From the IMG/VR virus record IMGVR_UViG_3300037247_000838, positions 1-49,329 of that record: 49,329 bases of DNA; one strand, 5' to 3'. The notes beneath the pieces were generated by a model that was given only the letters and a program-made list of their open reading frames with translations, did not search any database and had not been told where the DNA came from. How positions within the stretch are numbered: the first letter of the stretch is position 1; every line of letters starts with the position of its first letter. The stretch comes from a virus. The position numbers were made by a program, and so were the translations under genes. Of the stretch, positions 6,063-44,775 are shown in pieces.

Positions 6063-6791
6063 CTACCCCTCCCGCTTGACGATCTGCCGGATCGTGCCCG
6101 AATTCCACGTCTTGCCCCGGAAGTCGACGCCCTCCCCGTCTAGCGTCCTCGCGATCGCAACACTGGTAAAGCCTTGCGAAATCATGCCGAGGATGCGGCC
6201 GATCGTGGCCTGCTCAGCCTCGTTGCGCCGTATGCCGGTCGGCAGGCCGCTCAGCTTGTGCAGCTCGCTGTCCGGGTCCACTTCCCAGCCGTACCGTATG
6301 CGGTCGATGCGACCCATCCGCCGGCCCTTGCCGTTGCCGTCGTCCTGGTAGTCGAGCATCTTGTCCGACGTCGCTTCATTGCCAATCTCGCGAAAGCCCT
6401 GGTCGATCGCCGCCATGATGGTATAGATCATCCGGCCGTGTGGCGTGGACGTATCGAACATTTCGGTCGCCGACGCGAGTTGTGCGCCGCGACGTTTCAA
6501 GTCCTTGGCGATTTGCAGCCGGTCGATCGTGTCCCGGGACAGCCGGCTGAGCGAATAGACGACCAGCACGCCGGATTTTCCGAGGCGCTGAGTGTGGTCG
6601 ATCGCCTTGACGATGCCCGGCCGGCGCAGGTCCTTACCGCTCACGTCCGGATCGTCGTAGACCGCAGCGACGTCGTGTTTCAGGAACGCGGCGAACTCGC
6701 GGCAACGCTTCACTTGCGATTCGATGGTTTCGGTGGTCTCGCTCTGGTCTCTCGGCCGGGGCGAGAATCGAGCGTAAATGATAGCCTTCAT
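6063..6791 (-). CDS. Serine recombinase (resolvase/integrase family)
   Basis: The product has 242 residues. The N-terminal resolvase domain shows YARFS with nucleophile Ser10 and Arg8, then SLSRLSRD around residues 80-87 and a long E-helix region. The C-terminal part (about 160-242) matches the short recombinase DNA-binding domain (GWEVDPD, LPTGIRRNEAEQATIGRIL, TWNSGTIRQIVKR). It is shorter than large serine integrases, which carry a zinc and coiled-coil region. It could integrate the phage, resolve multimers or invert DNA. It is the last gene of the leftward block and the only site-specific recombinase in the genome. Confidence 0.88.
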   Translation of the reverse strand: MKAIIYARFSPRPRDQSETTETIESQVKRCREFAAFLKHDVAAVYDDPDVSGKDLRRPGIVKAIDHTQRLGKSGVLVVYSLSRLSRDTIDRLQIAKDLKRRGAQLASATEMFDTSTPHGRMIYTIMAAIDQGFREIGNEATSDKMLDYQDDGNGKGRRMGRIDRIRYGWEVDPDSELHKLSGLPTGIRRNEAEQATIGRILGMISQGFTSVAIARTLDGEGVDFRGKTWNSGTIRQIVKREG

Positions 6792-9365: not shown

Positions 9366-9403
9366 GGGTGAGCCCTCCGAATTCAAGGTTCCAGGGTTTG
9401 CCC

Positions 9404-9427
9404 GGCGCCCGGCTACTACCGGGCGCC
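9404..9427. promoter_or_regulatory. Perfect 9-bp hairpin in the leader of the leftward block
   Basis: Arms GGCGCCCGG (9404-9412) and CCGGGCGCC (9419-9427) flank a six-base loop. It sits between the leftward promoter and its first gene. On the + strand it is followed by ACTTTTAT, so it could stop stray rightward transcripts; on the - strand it would be a stable 5' leader hairpin. Confidence 0.6.
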
Positions 9428-9470
9428 ACTTTTATGCGCCAGGTGACCGGCGCAGTGGGCTTATGTCCTA

Positions 9471-9499
9471 AATCTATCGTCCACGTGGAACCGAGTCAA
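9471..9499 (-). promoter_or_regulatory. Leftward sigma70-like promoter with embedded palindrome
   Basis: On the - strand, TTGACT (9494-9499) and TAGATT (9471-9476) are separated by exactly 17 bases. The spacer contains the perfect palindrome TCCACGTGGA (9480-9489), well placed to act as an operator. The predicted start near 9464 would transcribe the accessory array and the recombinase. Confidence 0.65.
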
Positions 9500-9616
9500 G
9501 AACATTCCCGGCCGTCGGACACGATTCGGTTTTATTCGCCGTGAAACGTAGGGGTTTGGGCCGGAAACTATTTTGCGGCACGAGACTTGCAACAGGGGTT
9601 ACAGCATCAGGCCGAT

Positions 9617-9645
9617 TTGACAAGGGTGCGATTCAACGTCAGAAT
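9617..9645 (+). promoter_or_regulatory. Rightward sigma70-like promoter
   Basis: A perfect -35 TTGACA (9617-9622) is followed after 17 bases by CAGAAT (9640-9645). The predicted start near 9652 lies only a few bases before the first arm of the pseudoknot at 9656, so the transcript would begin with that structure. Confidence 0.6.
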
Positions 9646-9651
9646 TAGAGC

Positions 9652-10274
9652 AGGCGGGGTGATGCCGCCAGACAGACGATCTAAAAGCCGGACGTGACGG
9701 GCATCACCCCCGAAGCGAACCCGGCTTTTCTTATTGAGTGAAGTGAGTAGCGTCCGCCGTTTGTGTGGTTGCGAGTGGATTCCCGCCGTTCGTCGGGTTC
9801 GTGGGCCACTGATAGGCCGCAATCATGCCACCGCAAGGAAACGGCGGACGCCGCGCACTTCAGTAGCGGACGCGACGAAAGGAAACCTAAGCAGCCGAGC
9901 CCGTGGCGGGGCCTACTCCTTCCACCATCAGGGCGCGCCGAAAGGCTTGCGGCTGTGGATACAATGGACGTTTGACGGGGCGCCGCAATGGGCGACAAGC
10001 CGCGGCTTTGTGACGGCCGGGCCCGCTCAGTTGCAATTGCGACGTCCCGCCGAGCGTCCGGGCCCGCAGAGGGCGACCGATCGAAGTGGCCGCGGTAGAC
10101 AGCCACGGTGAGAGCCGTAGACTTGATGGCCACAAGCGCAGTCTGGGATCCCGGTGATACCACCATATTAAGCCGGGACAGCGCAGCCAATAGTGCTGGC
10201 GGGGTGTGGATCGAGTTGCAGCCCTGATAAGTGTGGCCTTGCCACGGCGCCGCTGCGCTTCGGCTACGCCGAAG
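9652..10274 (+). ncRNA. Candidate large structured noncoding RNA or long structured leader
   Basis: About 620 bases without a credible gene, starting at a good promoter. Perfect stems: 9656-9666 with 9700-9710 (11 bp), interleaved with 9683-9691/9721-9729 (9 bp), forming a pseudoknot; a long hairpin 9740-9861 whose core pairs 9750-9762 with 9839-9851 (13 bp); GCC-GAAA-GGC 9937-9946; GTTGC-AATT-GCGAC 10030-10043; 10086-10091/10128-10133 enclosing ACGG/CCGT; TCCCGG/CCGGGA 10149-10154/10173-10178; GTGGC/GCCAC 10233-10245; CTTCGGC/GCCGAAG 10258-10274. An unpaired A/C-rich stretch leads to the gene at 10334. Known large phage RNAs (GOLLD, ROOL) are comparable in size, but I cannot match the sequence to them. 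Confidence 0.5.
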
Positions 10275-10333
10275 ACAAGCCAAACAGCACGGGAACAACG
10301 CGCAAACAACCGCCAAACAACGGGGGAACGATC

Positions 10334-10579
10334 ATGTTCATCGAAGTACAATGGGTCGACGCTCGGACCGATGACGGTTGGACCGAAGAATGCGACCTGG
10401 ACCACAGACTCGCCGAAATCACGACCCTCGGCCACTTGATCCGCGAGGAAGACGGCGTCTTGTGTATGGCCGCTTCCAGAGACAAGCACACGGGGCAATT
10501 GAGCGGGATCGTGTACATCCCGCTCGTCTGCGTGATCGCAAGGCGGGTGATCGACGAACAACGGGGGAACGTGACGTGA
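10334..10579 (+). CDS. Hypothetical small phage protein
   Basis: The product has 81 residues from ATG 10334, preceded by CGGGGGAACG. The sequence is a mixed alpha/beta pattern with acidic first half (WVDARTDDGWTEECDLDHR) and a hydrophobic strand IVYIPLVCVIARRV. It is the first gene after the structured RNA region and overlaps the next gene by four bases. Confidence 0.6.
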   Translation: MFIEVQWVDARTDDGWTEECDLDHRLAEITTLGHLIREEDGVLCMAASRDKHTGQLSGIVYIPLVCVIARRVIDEQRGNVT

Positions 10580-10683
10580 AACTCTGGGAAATGATCGCGC
10601 TGGGGATGTTGGCCGCGATGCTGGCCGTCGTTGTTGGCTACGAGGTGGCCAAACTACTGATCCGCTGTTTGACCGCTGTTTGA
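10576..10683 (+). CDS. Single-pass membrane peptide
   Basis: The product has 35 residues and starts at GTG 10576 in the GTGA overlap with the upstream stop. Residues 6-22 (MIALGMLAAMLAVVVGY) form one membrane segment followed by a short basic helix. Such peptides in phages can be holin-like, superinfection-exclusion or membrane anchors; nothing decides between these. Confidence 0.55.
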   Translation: MKLWEMIALGMLAAMLAVVVGYEVAKLLIRCLTAV

Positions 10684-10742
10684 CCCCTGTTCGAGCCAAC
10701 ATCGCAGCACGCACGGCACGGGGCAGAGACGGCAGGCCAGCC

Positions 10743-11005
10743 GCTATTGAGACAAACCATGATACTGGTCTCAATAGCCAGAAAACCCTGAAAAGCAGGC
10801 CCTCAGATTGAGCCACAGCGAGCGCAAACAGGTCAAGACGACCTCAGATACCCTTGATTTCGGGGGTCAGTGATGGACAGTCTCAATAACAGCGACGCAA
10901 GCGCGGGGCAGGGGGCACGACAGTTTGCGACATGGTAGCATGGCGCTACCATCCACGCCAGGCGCACGCGCGGCAGGTGGCGACGTGACATAAGGGGTCG
11001 CTTAT
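10743..11005. promoter_or_regulatory. Cluster of operator-like inverted repeats
   Basis: The gap 10684-11193 has no good gene but several palindromes. GCTATTGAGAC/GTCTCAATAGC (10743-10753/10768-10778, 11 bp) has a third half-site GTCTCAATA at 10880-10888. ATGGTAGC/GCTACCAT pairs 10932-10939 with 10945-10952. CATAAG/CTTATG lies at about 10988-11005. The AT-rich, phased repeats look like repressor or activator sites for the following genes. No clear -35/-10 pair was found here. Confidence 0.5.
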
Positions 11006-11141
11006 GCTTGGGGAGAGGCGATGTAAGGTGAGCAGTGGCAAGGGGTTACGATGATAGCACGGCAGGGCAAAACGATCGCGCACGGCCAGAAACCGAACCG
11101 GACCCCCCACCCGGTCGCGGTAGGACCCATTCAGTTAGCCC

Positions 11142-11184
11142 GTTCGATGCGCTGCTGATTTTTCACTTGTTAAACTGGGTAAGG
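11142..11184 (+). repeat. Repeated gene leader, copy A
   Basis: GTTCGATGCGCTGC...TTGTTAAACTGGGTAAGG ends right at the ribosome binding site of the gene at 11194. It is closely matched by copy B at 11623-11665, and its 3' half by copy C at 11957-11980. Confidence 0.7.
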
Positions 11185-11193
11185 AGGTTCGTT

Positions 11194-11619
11194 ATGCAGA
11201 AGAAGCCTGACATTTGGGACGACACGCCGTTTCACACCAGCCGCAACACAGTGCTTGGTGCGTTGGCTTGCTGGGCGGTGCGGCAGTCGCCGTACTTGGT
11301 TCCGGCCGGTCTTGCGGAGGCGGTACACGAGTTTAGTGTGGCTTTTGGAATTGACGACGATGGATGCGTCGGGGTATTTGAAACCGACTGCCAGCGGCTT
11401 CGGAAGCAGGTGTTTGAGTGCTTCAGCGAGTGTTCGTCGATTCTCGCTTGGAACGAGTGCAAGAGCGGCACCACCCCTGCGGTCGTGGGTTCCAGTCGGT
11501 ACGATCGGCCGCACCCCGACAACGACATCATCGACTTGGACGCACTGGCCCGGAACATCGCTCACTCGATCACCGTTGAGGAGAAGTACGAGCAGGAGCA
11601 CGGTCCCGTCATGGTGTAG
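11194..11619 (+). CDS. Hypothetical protein
   Basis: The product has 141 residues. ATG 11194 has a strong AAGGAGG seven bases upstream; the in-frame GTG at 11035 would extend into repeat and operator-like DNA and is rejected. The protein is acidic and helical with four Cys and no standard metal motif. It heads a three-gene group in which each gene is preceded by the same leader. Confidence 0.65.
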   Translation: MQKKPDIWDDTPFHTSRNTVLGALACWAVRQSPYLVPAGLAEAVHEFSVAFGIDDDGCVGVFETDCQRLRKQVFECFSECSSILAWNECKSGTTPAVVGSSRYDRPHPDNDIIDLDALARNIAHSITVEEKYEQEHGPVMV

Positions 11620-14828: not shown

Positions 14829-15217
14829 AACGCCGTAACTTCATCACCGCCGGGCTGGCCATCTTGGCCGCGCCGTTTTCGCTGTCCGCCAAGCCGAAAC
14901 TGTCGTCGGATCCTCGCATAGAAGCGATGTGGCGGGCGAAATTCGCACTTGAGAGAATGGACCCCAGGAAACTTGCGGCGATGCAGAAGGCGGCCGGTCC
15001 GTGGCGGATCGTCAAGCAGAGCGAGGATGGGCGGGTCGTACTGGAGCGGGAGGGTTATTCACCGGTGCCTGATGGTTCTTCCTTGGACTGGGTGATGGGG
15101 CACGTTATCGTTGATTCGTCCGGTGCAGCCGTTTCGGTGTCGATACTGACAAGCGGGTACAAGGTGAGCAGGAACTTGACGCGGGGTAGTGCAGTTGGCA
15201 GCACGTCTGGCGCATAA
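14825..15217 (+). CDS. Predicted Tat-exported small protein 2
   Basis: The product has 130 residues. It starts MKRRNFITAGLAILAAPFSL with a likely cleavage after SAK, much like the preceding protein. The mature part has a PWRIVKQSEDGRVVLERE strand-rich segment. Its last dozen codons run into the tRNA gene at 15180-15252, and its TAA stop lies in that tRNA's anticodon loop. Either the gene was extended by an incoming tRNA, or the tRNA was captured at its 3' end. Confidence 0.6.
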   Translation: MKRRNFITAGLAILAAPFSLSAKPKLSSDPRIEAMWRAKFALERMDPRKLAAMQKAAGPWRIVKQSEDGRVVLEREGYSPVPDGSSLDWVMGHVIVDSSGAAVSVSILTSGYKVSRNLTRGSAVGSTSGA

Positions 15218-16866: not shown

Positions 16867-18771
16867 ATGGTAGCCCACGACCACAACACGAAAACGCCGT
16901 ACATCCACCTGGTCCCGAAAGACCCGGCGGAGAATCTGCGCTTTCGCCGGTGGGTGGCCGACCAGTGCAGGGGCAACCCGCGGCGGCAGGCGCAGTTGAA
17001 AGAGATGTGCCGCAGGGATCTGCTGTTCTACATCAACGTGTTCTGCTGGGTGTTGAATACCAAGGACTTCGCCAAGCAGCCCGTCCGGCCGTTCTTGTCC
17101 TGGTTGGATCAAGATCGGGTCATCTTGGATATGCAAGCAGCGTTTGGCGTCGAGGATCTGCAAGTCGTCAAGAGCCGCGACATGGGCGGTACGGAACTGA
17201 GCATGAAGGCTATTGAGTACGGATGGCATTTTCATGATTACCAGTCCTTCCTGGTCTGCTCGCGAAATGAGGACCTGGTCGACAAGACCGGAGACACGCG
17301 AACGCTCTTCCACCGGATCGACTTCACGCACAAGTTCCAACCGACGTGGCTGCTGCCCACTAGCCGGGCTCTGGGCGAGAAGGATCCGAACCGGATCAAC
17401 AACCACGTTAAGAACGCGGACAACGGCTCGGTGATTGACGGTACGGCGACCACGCCGAATATGTCGGTCGGCGACAAGCGGACGGGCATCTTGCTTGACG
17501 AGCGGGCTCTTATGGAAAACAACGTGGCGATTTCGACGGCGACCCGCGAAGCGACCAAGTGCCGGCTGAGTAACAGCACGCCGCGCGGCACCACGGGGGA
17601 CGGTGCCGAATTCTGGCGTCTCTTCAAGAGCCCGCATACCAAGACGGTTTGCCTTTGGTGGTGGATGCACCCGGACAAGCGCCGTGGCCTCTACACGAGT
17701 TTCGGCCAACGGCTGGTGAAGCTCGATCCGGATTACGAGTATCCAGCCGATTACGAGTTCATCCTCGACGGCGACAAGTGCCAGACGATCAACGCATACA
17801 TGATGGTCGAGGGCGTCAAGCGGAAGATGCGCTCGCCGTACTACGACTATGAGTGCGGCCGGGCGTCGAGCGACCAGGAGATCGCGCAGGAGCTTGACGG
17901 CGACTTCCTGTCGTCCGGCTGGTCGTTTTTCCGGATCGAAATGCTGGAGAAGCTCAAGGCGAAGTACGGCCGGCCGCCGGTCCACGTCGGCGAGTTGTCG
18001 TTCGATATCACGTCGCTTCGCACGGCCGAGTGGCGGGATGAGCCGCAAGGCCGGTTGTCGCTCTGGGGGAATCTGTCCGAAGATAAGCGGCTGCCCCTGG
18101 ACCATCAGTACGTCATCGGGATGGACGTCGCCACCGGCATCGGCGGTGAAATGTCGAGCAACTCGGCGATGAGCGTATTCGACAAGACCATGGGCGAGAA
18201 GGTGGCCGAATGGGTAAGCCGTACCACGTCGCCGGAAGACATGGCGAAATACGCCATGGCGCTGGGCTATTGGTTCAACGGCGCCTTGCTGATTCCCGAA
18301 TCGAACGGGCCCGGCGGGCAACTTATCAAGGTGCTTCTCGAATTGGGGTACCAGAATCTCTTCTATGGCTTGCGCGACGACCTGGCGTATGGCCAGAAGC
18401 CGCAACGCAAACCCGGCTGGGCCGCGACCAAGGCGAGTAAGCCGATCTTGCTGGGCGAGTACGGCCGGGCGCTGCGCGACGAGCGGTTTCCGAACCCGTC
18501 GCTCGAAGCGCTGAGGGAAGCCGGCGAGTACATGCACATGCCGAGCGGGAAGATCGAGCACTCCCGCACGAAGGGCGAAGGCGTCGGGCCGGCGGACGAA
18601 GGCGAGAACCACGGCGACCGCGTGATTGGCGACGCGCTGGCCTGGCTTGGCTCCAGGGACGTGAAGGTCGAGCGGGCCAAGCCGGTGGATGAGATTCCTC
18701 CGAACAGCTACGCGTTCCGGCAACAGCGGCGGCAGGCAAAGCGCAAAGAGAGGAAACAGTACGCATGGTAA
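16867..18771 (+). CDS. terL: Terminase large subunit
   Basis: The product has 634 residues. This motor protein uses ATP to pump DNA into the prohead and cuts the concatemer. The ATPase part shows a variant Walker A VKSRDMGGTE (101-110), Walker B GILLDE (207-212) and the coupling motif NSTPRG (236-241). The C-terminal RNase-H-like nuclease shows GMDVATG with Asp420, PESNGPG with Glu478 and GDRVIGDAL with Asp584/Asp589. The portal gene overlaps its 3' end by 7 bases. No small terminase was recognised next to it. Confidence 0.92.
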   Translation: MVAHDHNTKTPYIHLVPKDPAENLRFRRWVADQCRGNPRRQAQLKEMCRRDLLFYINVFCWVLNTKDFAKQPVRPFLSWLDQDRVILDMQAAFGVEDLQVVKSRDMGGTELSMKAIEYGWHFHDYQSFLVCSRNEDLVDKTGDTRTLFHRIDFTHKFQPTWLLPTSRALGEKDPNRINNHVKNADNGSVIDGTATTPNMSVGDKRTGILLDERALMENNVAISTATREATKCRLSNSTPRGTTGDGAEFWRLFKSPHTKTVCLWWWMHPDKRRGLYTSFGQRLVKLDPDYEYPADYEFILDGDKCQTINAYMMVEGVKRKMRSPYYDYECGRASSDQEIAQELDGDFLSSGWSFFRIEMLEKLKAKYGRPPVHVGELSFDITSLRTAEWRDEPQGRLSLWGNLSEDKRLPLDHQYVIGMDVATGIGGEMSSNSAMSVFDKTMGEKVAEWVSRTTSPEDMAKYAMALGYWFNGALLIPESNGPGGQLIKVLLELGYQNLFYGLRDDLAYGQKPQRKPGWAATKASKPILLGEYGRALRDERFPNPSLEALREAGEYMHMPSGKIEHSRTKGEGVGPADEGENHGDRVIGDALAWLGSRDVKVERAKPVDEIPPNSYAFRQQRRQAKRKERKQYAW

Positions 18772-42966: not shown

Positions 42967-42994
42967 TTGACATCTTTTCCTGAATCGCTAGATT
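42967..42994 (+). promoter_or_regulatory. Early rightward promoter
   Basis: TTGACA (42967-42972) and TAGATT (42989-42994) are 16 bases apart. The -10 box is the same as that of the leftward promoter at 9471. A transcript from near 43001 would pass two terminator-like hairpins before the first gene at 43336. A strong inverted repeat (GCCGGCGAAA ... TTTCGCC-CCGGC, about 42939-42964) lies immediately upstream. Confidence 0.65.
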
Positions 42995-43130
42995 CCGAAG
43001 CATGCTCAGCTTCTCAATCAACTTCTGGATTTTTCCACCTCGCGCAGCGGTCTGTTGTCGCTGAGCAATGCGCGGGGTGGTTTTCCTTTTTTCCTGAACA
43101 CCAAAGCCCGAGAAGGGCAAGGTTCGTCCG

Positions 43131-43193
43131 GTCCGTGGGCTTTCGCAGAATTCGTCCCAACGGTTTTCGTTTGTCCCACGGGCCGGCATTTTT
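43131..43193 (+). promoter_or_regulatory. GTCCGTG-type hairpin repeat 1
   Basis: GTCCGTGGG (43131-43139) pairs with CCCACGGGC (43175-43183), followed by CGGCATTTTT. It belongs to a four-member family between 43131 and 43753. A conditional terminator or antitermination site in the early leader is likely. Confidence 0.65.
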
Positions 43194-43232
43194 CCCTGAA
43201 CCAAAGGCCGAGTTTAGGCCAAGTGTTAGCCA

Positions 43233-43298
43233 GTCCGTGCGGTGGCGAGGACTCCGATCCGCAATCGTCATCCTCGTCGCCCACGGGCCGGCATTTTT
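43233..43298 (+). promoter_or_regulatory. GTCCGTG-type hairpin repeat 2
   Basis: GTCCGTG (43233-43239) pairs with CACGGGC (43282-43288), and after a bulged C, GGTGGCGAGGA (43241-43251) pairs with TCCTCGTCGCC (43271-43281). That is 18 bp with two wobbles and a 19-base loop, followed by CGGCATTTTT. It is the strongest member of the family and sits 38 bases before the gene at 43336. Confidence 0.75.
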
Positions 43299-43335
43299 GT
43301 CCGAGTTACTTTTGCATTGACTCAAGGAGAATGCG

Positions 43336-43608
43336 ATGAATCACCGTCCGATCGAACCGGATCGAGAAAAACAGGTCCCCTCGCAGCTTGCCGGCCTCAA
43401 CTCGACTCTCGACCAACTGTCGGAAGCCGTGAATGGATTGGAGCAGGCTCTTTCGCCAGTGTTGGTGGCACCTGATCCACCATCTGACACGGCAGAGGAG
43501 CCTGCGTGCCCTGAGTGCGAGTTGGCAACTGCGCTCATGTCGGCTCGTCGGCGAGTAGAGACGATCCTCTCGACTGTCCTGAACGTGACGTCCCGACTGG
43601 GAGTCTAG
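43336..43608 (+). CDS. Hypothetical helical phage protein
   Basis: The product has 90 residues with CAAGGAG before ATG 43336. The helical pattern LNSTLDQLSEAVNGLEQAL ... ECELATALMSARRRVETILSTVLNVTSRL is a common design for small phage early proteins and suggests a coiled coil. A CPEC pair lies in the middle. It is flanked on both sides by members of the same hairpin repeat family. Confidence 0.65.
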   Translation: MNHRPIEPDREKQVPSQLAGLNSTLDQLSEAVNGLEQALSPVLVAPDPPSDTAEEPACPECELATALMSARRRVETILSTVLNVTSRLGV

Positions 43609-43620
43609 TTTTTGCACGTC

Positions 43621-43668
43621 GGTCCGTGGTGTCGCAGATTTCGTCCTCGTTGCCCTGCCCCACGGATC
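43621..43668 (+). promoter_or_regulatory. GTCCGTG-type hairpin repeat 3
   Basis: GTCCGTGG pairs with CCACGGAT (43622-43629/43660-43667). It shares the internal TCGCAGA-TTCGTCC segment with repeat 1 but is followed by CGGCAAGTCTT instead of a T-run. Confidence 0.6.
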
Positions 43669-43684
43669 GGCAAGTCTTCGTCCG

Positions 43685-43753
43685 GTCCGTGCGGTGGCGA
43701 GGTTTGTCAACGCCTTCCTCGCATATTAACTTCCGCACGGGCCGGCCATTTTT
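43685..43753 (+). promoter_or_regulatory. GTCCGTG-type hairpin repeat 4
   Basis: GTCCGTGCGG (43685-43694) pairs with CCGCACGGGC (43733-43742), with an inner GCGAGG/CCTCGC stem, followed by CGGCCATTTTT. Compared with repeat 1, both arms changed together (GGG/CCC versus GCGG/CCGC), which supports selection on the structure. The gap 43609-43862 otherwise holds no convincing gene. Confidence 0.7.
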
Positions 43754-43862
43754 GGATGCTGTTTCTGTGGCCGGCACGCCATTTACGCCTCGTTGTTTGG
43801 ATTTTTCCTCCTTGTCGCGGTGCCGCGCGACTGGGAGGTTTTTTCGTCTCCGGAGGAAAGTC

Positions 43863-44155: not shown

Positions 44156-44287
44156 ATGGCCGAGAATCGCGGGATCGGAAGCCCGGGCAAGGATGCAGAC
44201 GCGGCGGTCGGGCCCGAAAGGGTCGTGCAACTCCCCGGGGCGTCCGGCCGTCGCGCCGTTTTGTTGGAAAGGACTCCACTATGTTAG
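44156..44287 (+). CDS. Small leader-like protein coupled to csrA
   Basis: The product has 43 residues, Gly/Ala/Arg-rich, from ATG 44156 after GGAG. Its TAG stop overlaps the csrA start by seven bases (ATGTTAG), so ribosomes ending here could restart on csrA. It may be a coupling peptide rather than a functional protein. Confidence 0.5.
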   Translation: MAENRGIGSPGKDADAAVGPERVVQLPGASGRRAVLLERTPLC

Positions 44288-44775
44288 TGCTCTCACGCGA
44301 GCGGCATGAGGAAATTTGCATCGGCGACGACATCGTTGTCGCCATCGTCCAGATTCTCGGCAACAGAGTGCGGGTCGGCGTCGACGCGCCGCCGGAAGTG
44401 CCGGTTCATCGCAGGGAAGTGTATGACGCGATCCAGCGGGACGGGGCAAAACGGCCGGCGCCAGACACGTCGGGCCTGCTCAATCAGCTCAAGTCGTTTC
44501 GGCTGGCCGGCGCGGCGACCCTGTACGACGTGAACGAGGGCCGCAAGTGCGATCCGGTGTCGGTCGACGGGCTGATCGCGCTGATCGAAAGGCTGGAGCG
44601 AGTAAAGGTCGCAGCGCGGACGGCTCTTGATATTTGTCGCACGGAAGTGAAGTCGATTGTCGATCATAGTGTGCGCTCGCCGGTGGTCAAGGCGGGTGCG
44701 GATCAGTTCGCCGCCGCATGGCGCGACTTGAAGGAGGCCGTGGAAGCCGCCGAAGCGGAGGAACCCGGAAATTGA
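44281..44775 (+). CDS. csrA: CsrA-domain protein with a C-terminal extension
   Basis: The product has 164 residues. CsrA is a dimeric RNA-binding regulator that blocks or stabilises mRNAs at GGA hairpins. Residues 1-58 are a complete CsrA domain (MLVLSRERHEEICIGDDI ... VPVHRREVYDAI), keeping Leu4 and Arg44, the key RNA-contact residues. Ordinary CsrA ends near residue 60; here about 105 more residues follow, helical and of unknown family. GGAAAGGA overlaps its own ribosome binding site, so autoregulation is possible. A phage copy could rewire host post-transcriptional control. Confidence 0.9.
   Translation: MLVLSRERHEEICIGDDIVVAIVQILGNRVRVGVDAPPEVPVHRREVYDAIQRDGAKRPAPDTSGLLNQLKSFRLAGAATLYDVNEGRKCDPVSVDGLIALIERLERVKVAARTALDICRTEVKSIVDHSVRSPVVKAGADQFAAAWRDLKEAVEAAEAEEPGN

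Follow-up and report, generated by a model that had tools for sequence, protein, structure and literature searches.

The noncoding interval and its surroundings

What is the role of a stretch of about 620 nt without genes (9652–10274) in a phage genome? The window we have analyzed is the whole sequence (49,329 bases). A direct repeat of 127 bases is present at both ends, and therefore the genome is probably complete, either circular or circularly permuted. Its genes include those of a terminase, a major capsid protein, an Erf-like annealing protein, RusA, a PD-(D/E)XK nuclease, CsrA and a serine recombinase. The stretch lies in the longest noncoding interval of the genome (9387–10333), which has a leftward block including the serine recombinase on one side and a rightward operon, starting at 10334, on the other. 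The initial annotation had described it as a gene-free stretch in a tightly packed genome. The first part is confirmed: no coding signal is found in any frame of 9387–10333. Long antisense open reading frames are present, but they show neither a codon signal nor a Pfam match, and a coding explanation has been discarded. Tight packing is only partly correct: according to our own gene calling, the coding density is 85% and there are eight gaps of at least 300 nt, although this gap is indeed the largest.

The serine recombinase (6063–6791, minus strand) has only 242 aa and matches large phage integrases over their N-terminal part; it may be truncated. The nearest confident tRNA genes are found at 15180 and 15360, about 5 kb from the structured stretch. 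The genes on the right side of the interval are the following:

10334–10579, plus strand: first gene of the operon, 81 aa, without a family match
10576–10683, plus strand: second gene, a 35-aa hydrophobic peptide, which overlaps the stop of the first gene
11194–11619, plus strand: next gene, a homologue of Tad5, a type I Thoeris inhibitor (PF25190, 3.4e-22)

Relatives of the 81-aa protein were not found in phages or in IMG/VR. The Tad5 homologue has relatives with about 30% identity in large Rhizobium phages. A 510-nt gap (10684–11193) separates the peptide gene from Tad5. Its overall structure is not unusual. It contains a perfect 11-bp inverted repeat, GCTATTGAGAC...GTCTCAATAGC (10742–10776), a candidate operator or hairpin, and an extra GTCTCAATA half at 10880.

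A predicted promoter and two hairpins at the 5' edge

The left edge of the stretch contains these features:

9617–9645, plus strand: sigma-70-like promoter, TTGACA-17-CAGAAT, with 10/12 consensus matches
9652–9735, plus strand: 5' module, from the predicted start to the U-rich tail, a putative two-hairpin RNA of about 84 nt or an attenuator
9653–9669, plus strand: hairpin H1, GGCGG-[GGUGAUG]-CCGCC
9683–9735, plus strand: hairpin H2, intrinsic-terminator-like, with outer stem 9683–9691/9721–9729, inner stems and loop 9702–9708 (CAUCACC), followed by CTTATT; d = 16.6
9656–9710, plus strand: S1, an alternative perfect helix of 11 bp, antiterminator-like, with arms 9656–9666/9700–9710, which excludes H1 and the inner part of H2

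The promoter, already noticed in the initial annotation, ends 7 nt upstream of 9652, where the structured part begins, and we infer a transcription start near this position. Only two plus-strand sites in the genome (9617 and 42967) have at least 10/12 sigma-70 matches, with 1.1 per strand in mononucleotide shuffles; these hexamers are the general consensus, from which that of the host may differ. Both sites have a terminator-like site within about 115 nt, some 80 nt past the predicted start. When sites with at least 9/12 matches are considered, there are 12 in the window, and a terminator-like site is found within 130 nt only at 9617 and 42967.

The minimum-energy fold of the first 84 nt consists of H1 and H2, whose loops, GGUGAUG and CAUCACC, are exact complements (7/7 nt). 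Among 4000 dinucleotide shuffles of the module, loop complementarity of 7 nt was never found and 6 nt was found twice. A survey of the whole genome in 90-nt tiles, on both strands, gave a single other site with at least 6 nt (27226, seen on both strands) among 3268 hairpin pairs. The complementarity of the loops extends into the 11 bp of S1, a competitor of H1 and of the upper part of H2, so that a mutually exclusive antiterminator pairing is predicted. In fact, predicted folds of a growing transcript go from H1 to S1 (−24.9 at 62 nt) and then to H1 plus H2 (74–80 nt; −32.8 at 80 nt).

As a terminator, H2 is a 39-nt hairpin containing interior loops, with a U-rich run, UUUUCUUAUU, counting the end of the stem. 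Its score is moderate, the 8th among 23 positive sites in the genome, as calculated with the formula of d'Aubenton-Carafa. For each of these 23 sites, the 60 bases upstream were also searched for the longest complement. The complement at 9725 (11 nt, 0/500 shuffles) is by far the longest; this comparison was devised after the module had been seen, so its p-value is only descriptive. On the minus strand, no consensus promoter was found over the module, in a search limited to consensus sites which a non-consensus promoter would escape.

The downstream domains

The rest of the interval, up to the first gene, presents the following features:

9739–9862, plus strand: domain 2, a long hairpin with 7 bp plus a 13-bp core and an imperfect apex; z = −4.7 on the plus strand, −5.5 on the minus strand
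9881–10256, plus strand: domain 3, a predicted multibranched fold closed by 9891–9913/10235–10256; z = −3.4 on the plus strand, −1.2 on the minus strand
9937–9946, plus strand: GCC-GAAA-GGC tetraloop hairpin, within domain 3
10258–10274, plus strand: hairpin CUUCGGC-UAC-GCCGAAG, without a U-tract, not a terminator
10275–10333, plus strand: A/C-rich unstructured spacer with a ribosome-binding site (GGGGGAAC) before the first gene

The GAAA tetraloop and the A/C-rich end reported in the initial annotation are found as described. Two perfect stems of at least 11 bp are present, the 13-bp core of domain 2 (9750–9762/9839–9851), which it mentioned, and the 11-bp S1, when only 0.05 are expected in shuffles. 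On the other hand, the long-range 13-bp stem 9901–9913/10235–10247 includes two G-U pairs, and comparable stems are not rare in shuffles. We should also note that GCGGACGC is present twice (9844–9851 and 9867–9874), so the 5' arm GCGTCCGC (9750–9757) has two possible partners, possibly another alternative fold.

The 623-nt stretch has a folding energy of −294.5 kcal/mol, with z = −5.4 on the plus strand and −2.9 on the minus strand (20 shuffles); other shuffle runs gave values of about −3.5 to −4.5 on the plus strand. This fold is not unique, it ranks 5th among 110 plus-strand windows of 623 nt. Domain 2 folds strongly on both strands. For domain 3, none of 200 shuffles was equally stable on the plus strand. 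When compared with 164 windows of 376 nt, it is among the top 5% or so. About seven other plus-strand windows of this size match its z, mostly near 16.2, 21–24 and 42.9–43.9 kb. The region did not stand out in a genome-wide tiling with 150-nt tiles, as its stems reach over longer distances. Near 10274, the search for terminator-like sites gave none.

Search for related sequences

The initial annotation recognized no sequence match, and our searches agree. Rfam gave no match at the gathering threshold, nor any beyond chance at E ≤ 10 for 9400–11250. No DNA similarity was found in annotated phages and plasmids. Scans of IMG/VR with an antisense frame as a pseudo-protein probe and with two exact patterns (a 16-mer and a 15-mer) gave isolated chance matches. 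Many relatives of the phage can be found in IMG/VR through the terminase and the major capsid protein, the nearest ones with about 40% and 50% identity. No similar RNA was detected in them by blastn, nhmmer or single-sequence covariance models, which have little power, and no sequence is common to their structured gaps and 9387–10333. In genome contigs, no prophage relatives could be confirmed.

In one of these relatives, G005, strong terminators come after promoter-like sites in two structured gaps, without long upstream complements. This relative also contains two type-P5 twister ribozymes (L137, 2408–2472 and 3860–3925) and encodes CsrA.

A possible attenuated leader

The initial annotation proposed a large noncoding RNA with its own promoter. 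The position of the promoter, the absence of a coding signal and the folding of the plus strand agree with a structured, promoter-driven RNA, and the gap is probably transcribed as a folded RNA. A single discrete RNA of about 620 nt is not supported, as there is a terminator-like site at 9683–9735 and none at 10274. We suggest, with a probability of about 0.48, that the stretch is a long, structured and attenuated leader of a rightward early operon, with a conditional terminator near the promoter. It is considered as a leader because a terminator is missing near 10274 and an ATG with a ribosome-binding site is found at 10334. An attenuated leader would account for a promoter located at the edge and a terminator at about +80, as well as for the missing 3' terminator and the ribosome-binding site before 10334. 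The features of an attenuator predicted from the sequence are the promoter (9617–9645), the terminator-like hairpin (9683–9735), the gene at 10334 and the alternative pairing of S1 against H1 and the inner part of H2. The 376 nt of domain 3 are left unexplained by attenuation alone. The evidence is predicted from a single genome: the folds, the scores and the parallel at 42967–43096 are computed on its sequence, and from them we infer transcription, termination, read-through and regulation.

The mechanism might be as follows. Transcription would start near 9652 and H1 would form first. At about 60 nt, the 5' arm and the loop of H1 would switch to S1, pairing with the upper part of the coming H2. 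Once H2 has emerged up to its last strand, the combination of H1 and H2 would become more stable than S1, and H2 with its U-rich tail would stop transcription at about 9735, releasing an RNA of about 84 nt. Read-through would give domains 2 and 3 and, after them, the operon, which encodes the 81-aa protein and the 35-aa peptide, and probably also Tad5. The balance may be tipped by a kissing loop between H1 and H2, formed either in cis or by separate copies of the short RNA. Another candidate is an antitermination factor from the phage or the host. If this is correct, there would be an RNA-level on/off control ahead of an anti-defence gene, and the exact 7-nt complementarity of the loops would be a specific switch, open to compensatory mutations.

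Known systems and alternative explanations

Kissing attenuators of the pT181 type have a conditional promoter-proximal terminator, an alternative pairing and complementarity between hairpin loops (PMC3753616). The phage module shares the predicted terminator, which would hinge on an alternative pairing, and the loop complementarity. It differs in having both complementary loops in the same transcript and in the lack of an antisense consensus promoter on the opposite strand.

The module might also be a short regulatory RNA of about 84 nt (9652–9735) with its own terminator, which acts in trans and is occasionally read through to give an mRNA form. A promoter, two hairpins and a U-tail packed in 84 nt agree with this explanation, and there are precedents: IsrK of prophage Gifsy-1 exists in a short form and a read-through form like these, and the P4 CI RNA causes premature termination through complementary segments in the leader; in these systems internal complementary segments cooperate (PMC4825925). 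Like IsrK and the P4 CI/seqA/seqC leader, the phage module would be a prophage-type leader, which is predicted to give a short RNA by termination and an mRNA by read-through, and whose internal segments include complementary ones. Its complementary segments, however, are located in adjacent hairpin loops, there is no known sequence relation and action in trans is only putative. No trans target was found: GGTGATGCC and GGCATCACC occur solely at 9658 and 9700, and no single site stands out in duplexes with the rest of the leader. We consider a trans-acting short RNA unlikely.

A discrete structured RNA of about 600 nt, accumulating during infection and forming a new class analogous to GOLLD and ROOL, seems somewhat more doubtful than a short RNA. 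The loops of H1 and H2 would then form tertiary or intermolecular kissing contacts, and the A/C-rich tail would be the end of the molecule. The promoter exactly at the 5' edge, the preference of domain 3 for the plus strand (z = −3.4, with −1.2 on the minus strand), the many helices, the GNRA-type tetraloop and the absence of a coding signal are in agreement, and kissing loops are used by the GOLLD and ROOL cages, which are also similar in phage location and size (PMC12286853). Against it are the terminator-like hairpin 80 nt past the predicted start and the lack of a 3' terminator at 10274; furthermore, no homologue appeared anywhere we searched, and the fold is not exceptional when compared with the rest of the genome. 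It could possibly arise through read-through and processing. A new class of structured phage RNA of about 600 nt, in which the 5' kissing-loop/terminator module also sets the output of the full-length form, is improbable. If a discrete 600-nt RNA accumulates instead of a leader, it would be a further class of large phage RNA.

The likeness to GOLLD and ROOL suggested in the initial annotation is not supported. They share a phage location, hundreds of structured nucleotides, a possible kissing loop and a phage with tRNA genes. The differences are the absence of an Rfam match, of homologues and of a defined 3' end, and the terminator-like hairpin near the 5' end. GOLLD and ROOL are often found beside tRNA genes in phages, but here these genes are about 5 kb away. 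None of the features that can be tested on the sequence places the stretch with GOLLD, ROOL or OLE.

In the late leader of phage lambda, pR'-tR' (6S RNA), the terminator comes immediately after the promoter and precedes an operon. The same arrangement is predicted here, in a shorter leader which carries an 11-bp alternative helix and is not accompanied by any recognized Q-like gene. A control in which the promoters are constitutive, and an antitermination protein or RNA of the phage overcomes the terminators next to them, would agree with the two plus-strand promoters, each heading a rightward gene block with a terminator about 80 nt past its predicted start, and also with the similar sites in the relative G005. 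However, no antiterminator gene was recognized among the scanned proteins, and control of this kind does not by itself predict complementary loops. We regard it as improbable.

Finally, it is very unlikely that the stretch has no role as RNA, being either a DNA element (an origin, a recombination site or an operator region) or a chance GC-rich fold. It is true that domain 2 folds equally well on the minus strand, that inverted repeats can be DNA sites and that other windows in the genome, some of them coding, are equally structured. Nevertheless, there are no iterons and no skew switch at the site, which speaks against a replication origin, the recombinase gene is 3 kb away, domain 3 favours the plus strand and the module is positioned by the promoter. 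A sponge for CsrA was also discarded: although the phage encodes CsrA, GGA motifs are not enriched (11 found, 15 expected).

A second predicted promoter followed by a terminator-like site

An arrangement similar to that of the proposed attenuated leader is found elsewhere in the genome:

42967–43096, plus strand: second promoter (10/12) and then a terminator, with a hairpin ending at 43080, d = 29.5 and an 8-nt upstream complement

The predicted RNA begins with bases (UGCUCAGC) that complement the upper part of the 43080 terminator (GCUGAGCA). In the predicted folds, this pairing precedes the completion of the terminator, and the folding order of the RNA starting at 43001 resembles that of the 9652 module. 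The upstream complement has p = 0.012. Other terminator-like sites among the 23 have complements of 4–8 nt, and the other case with 8 nt is at 17925, inside a gene. This second site was found after the 9652 module, and it may be considered as a modest independent test of the arrangement. If the proposed explanation is correct, at least two rightward gene blocks would open with promoter-proximal terminators carrying built-in alternative pairings.

The block 42967–43862, opened by the second most promoter-like site of the plus strand, is noncoding and structured, and its folds are among the most stable in the genome. In it, a hairpin unit (GTCCGTG...CCCACGGGCCGGC) is repeated about four times, and two of the copies end in ATTTTT; these may be tandem small RNAs or stacked terminators. 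Just downstream of this block we find the CsrA homologue (44281–44775; 164 aa; PF02599, 2.6e-21), which has a long C-terminal extension.
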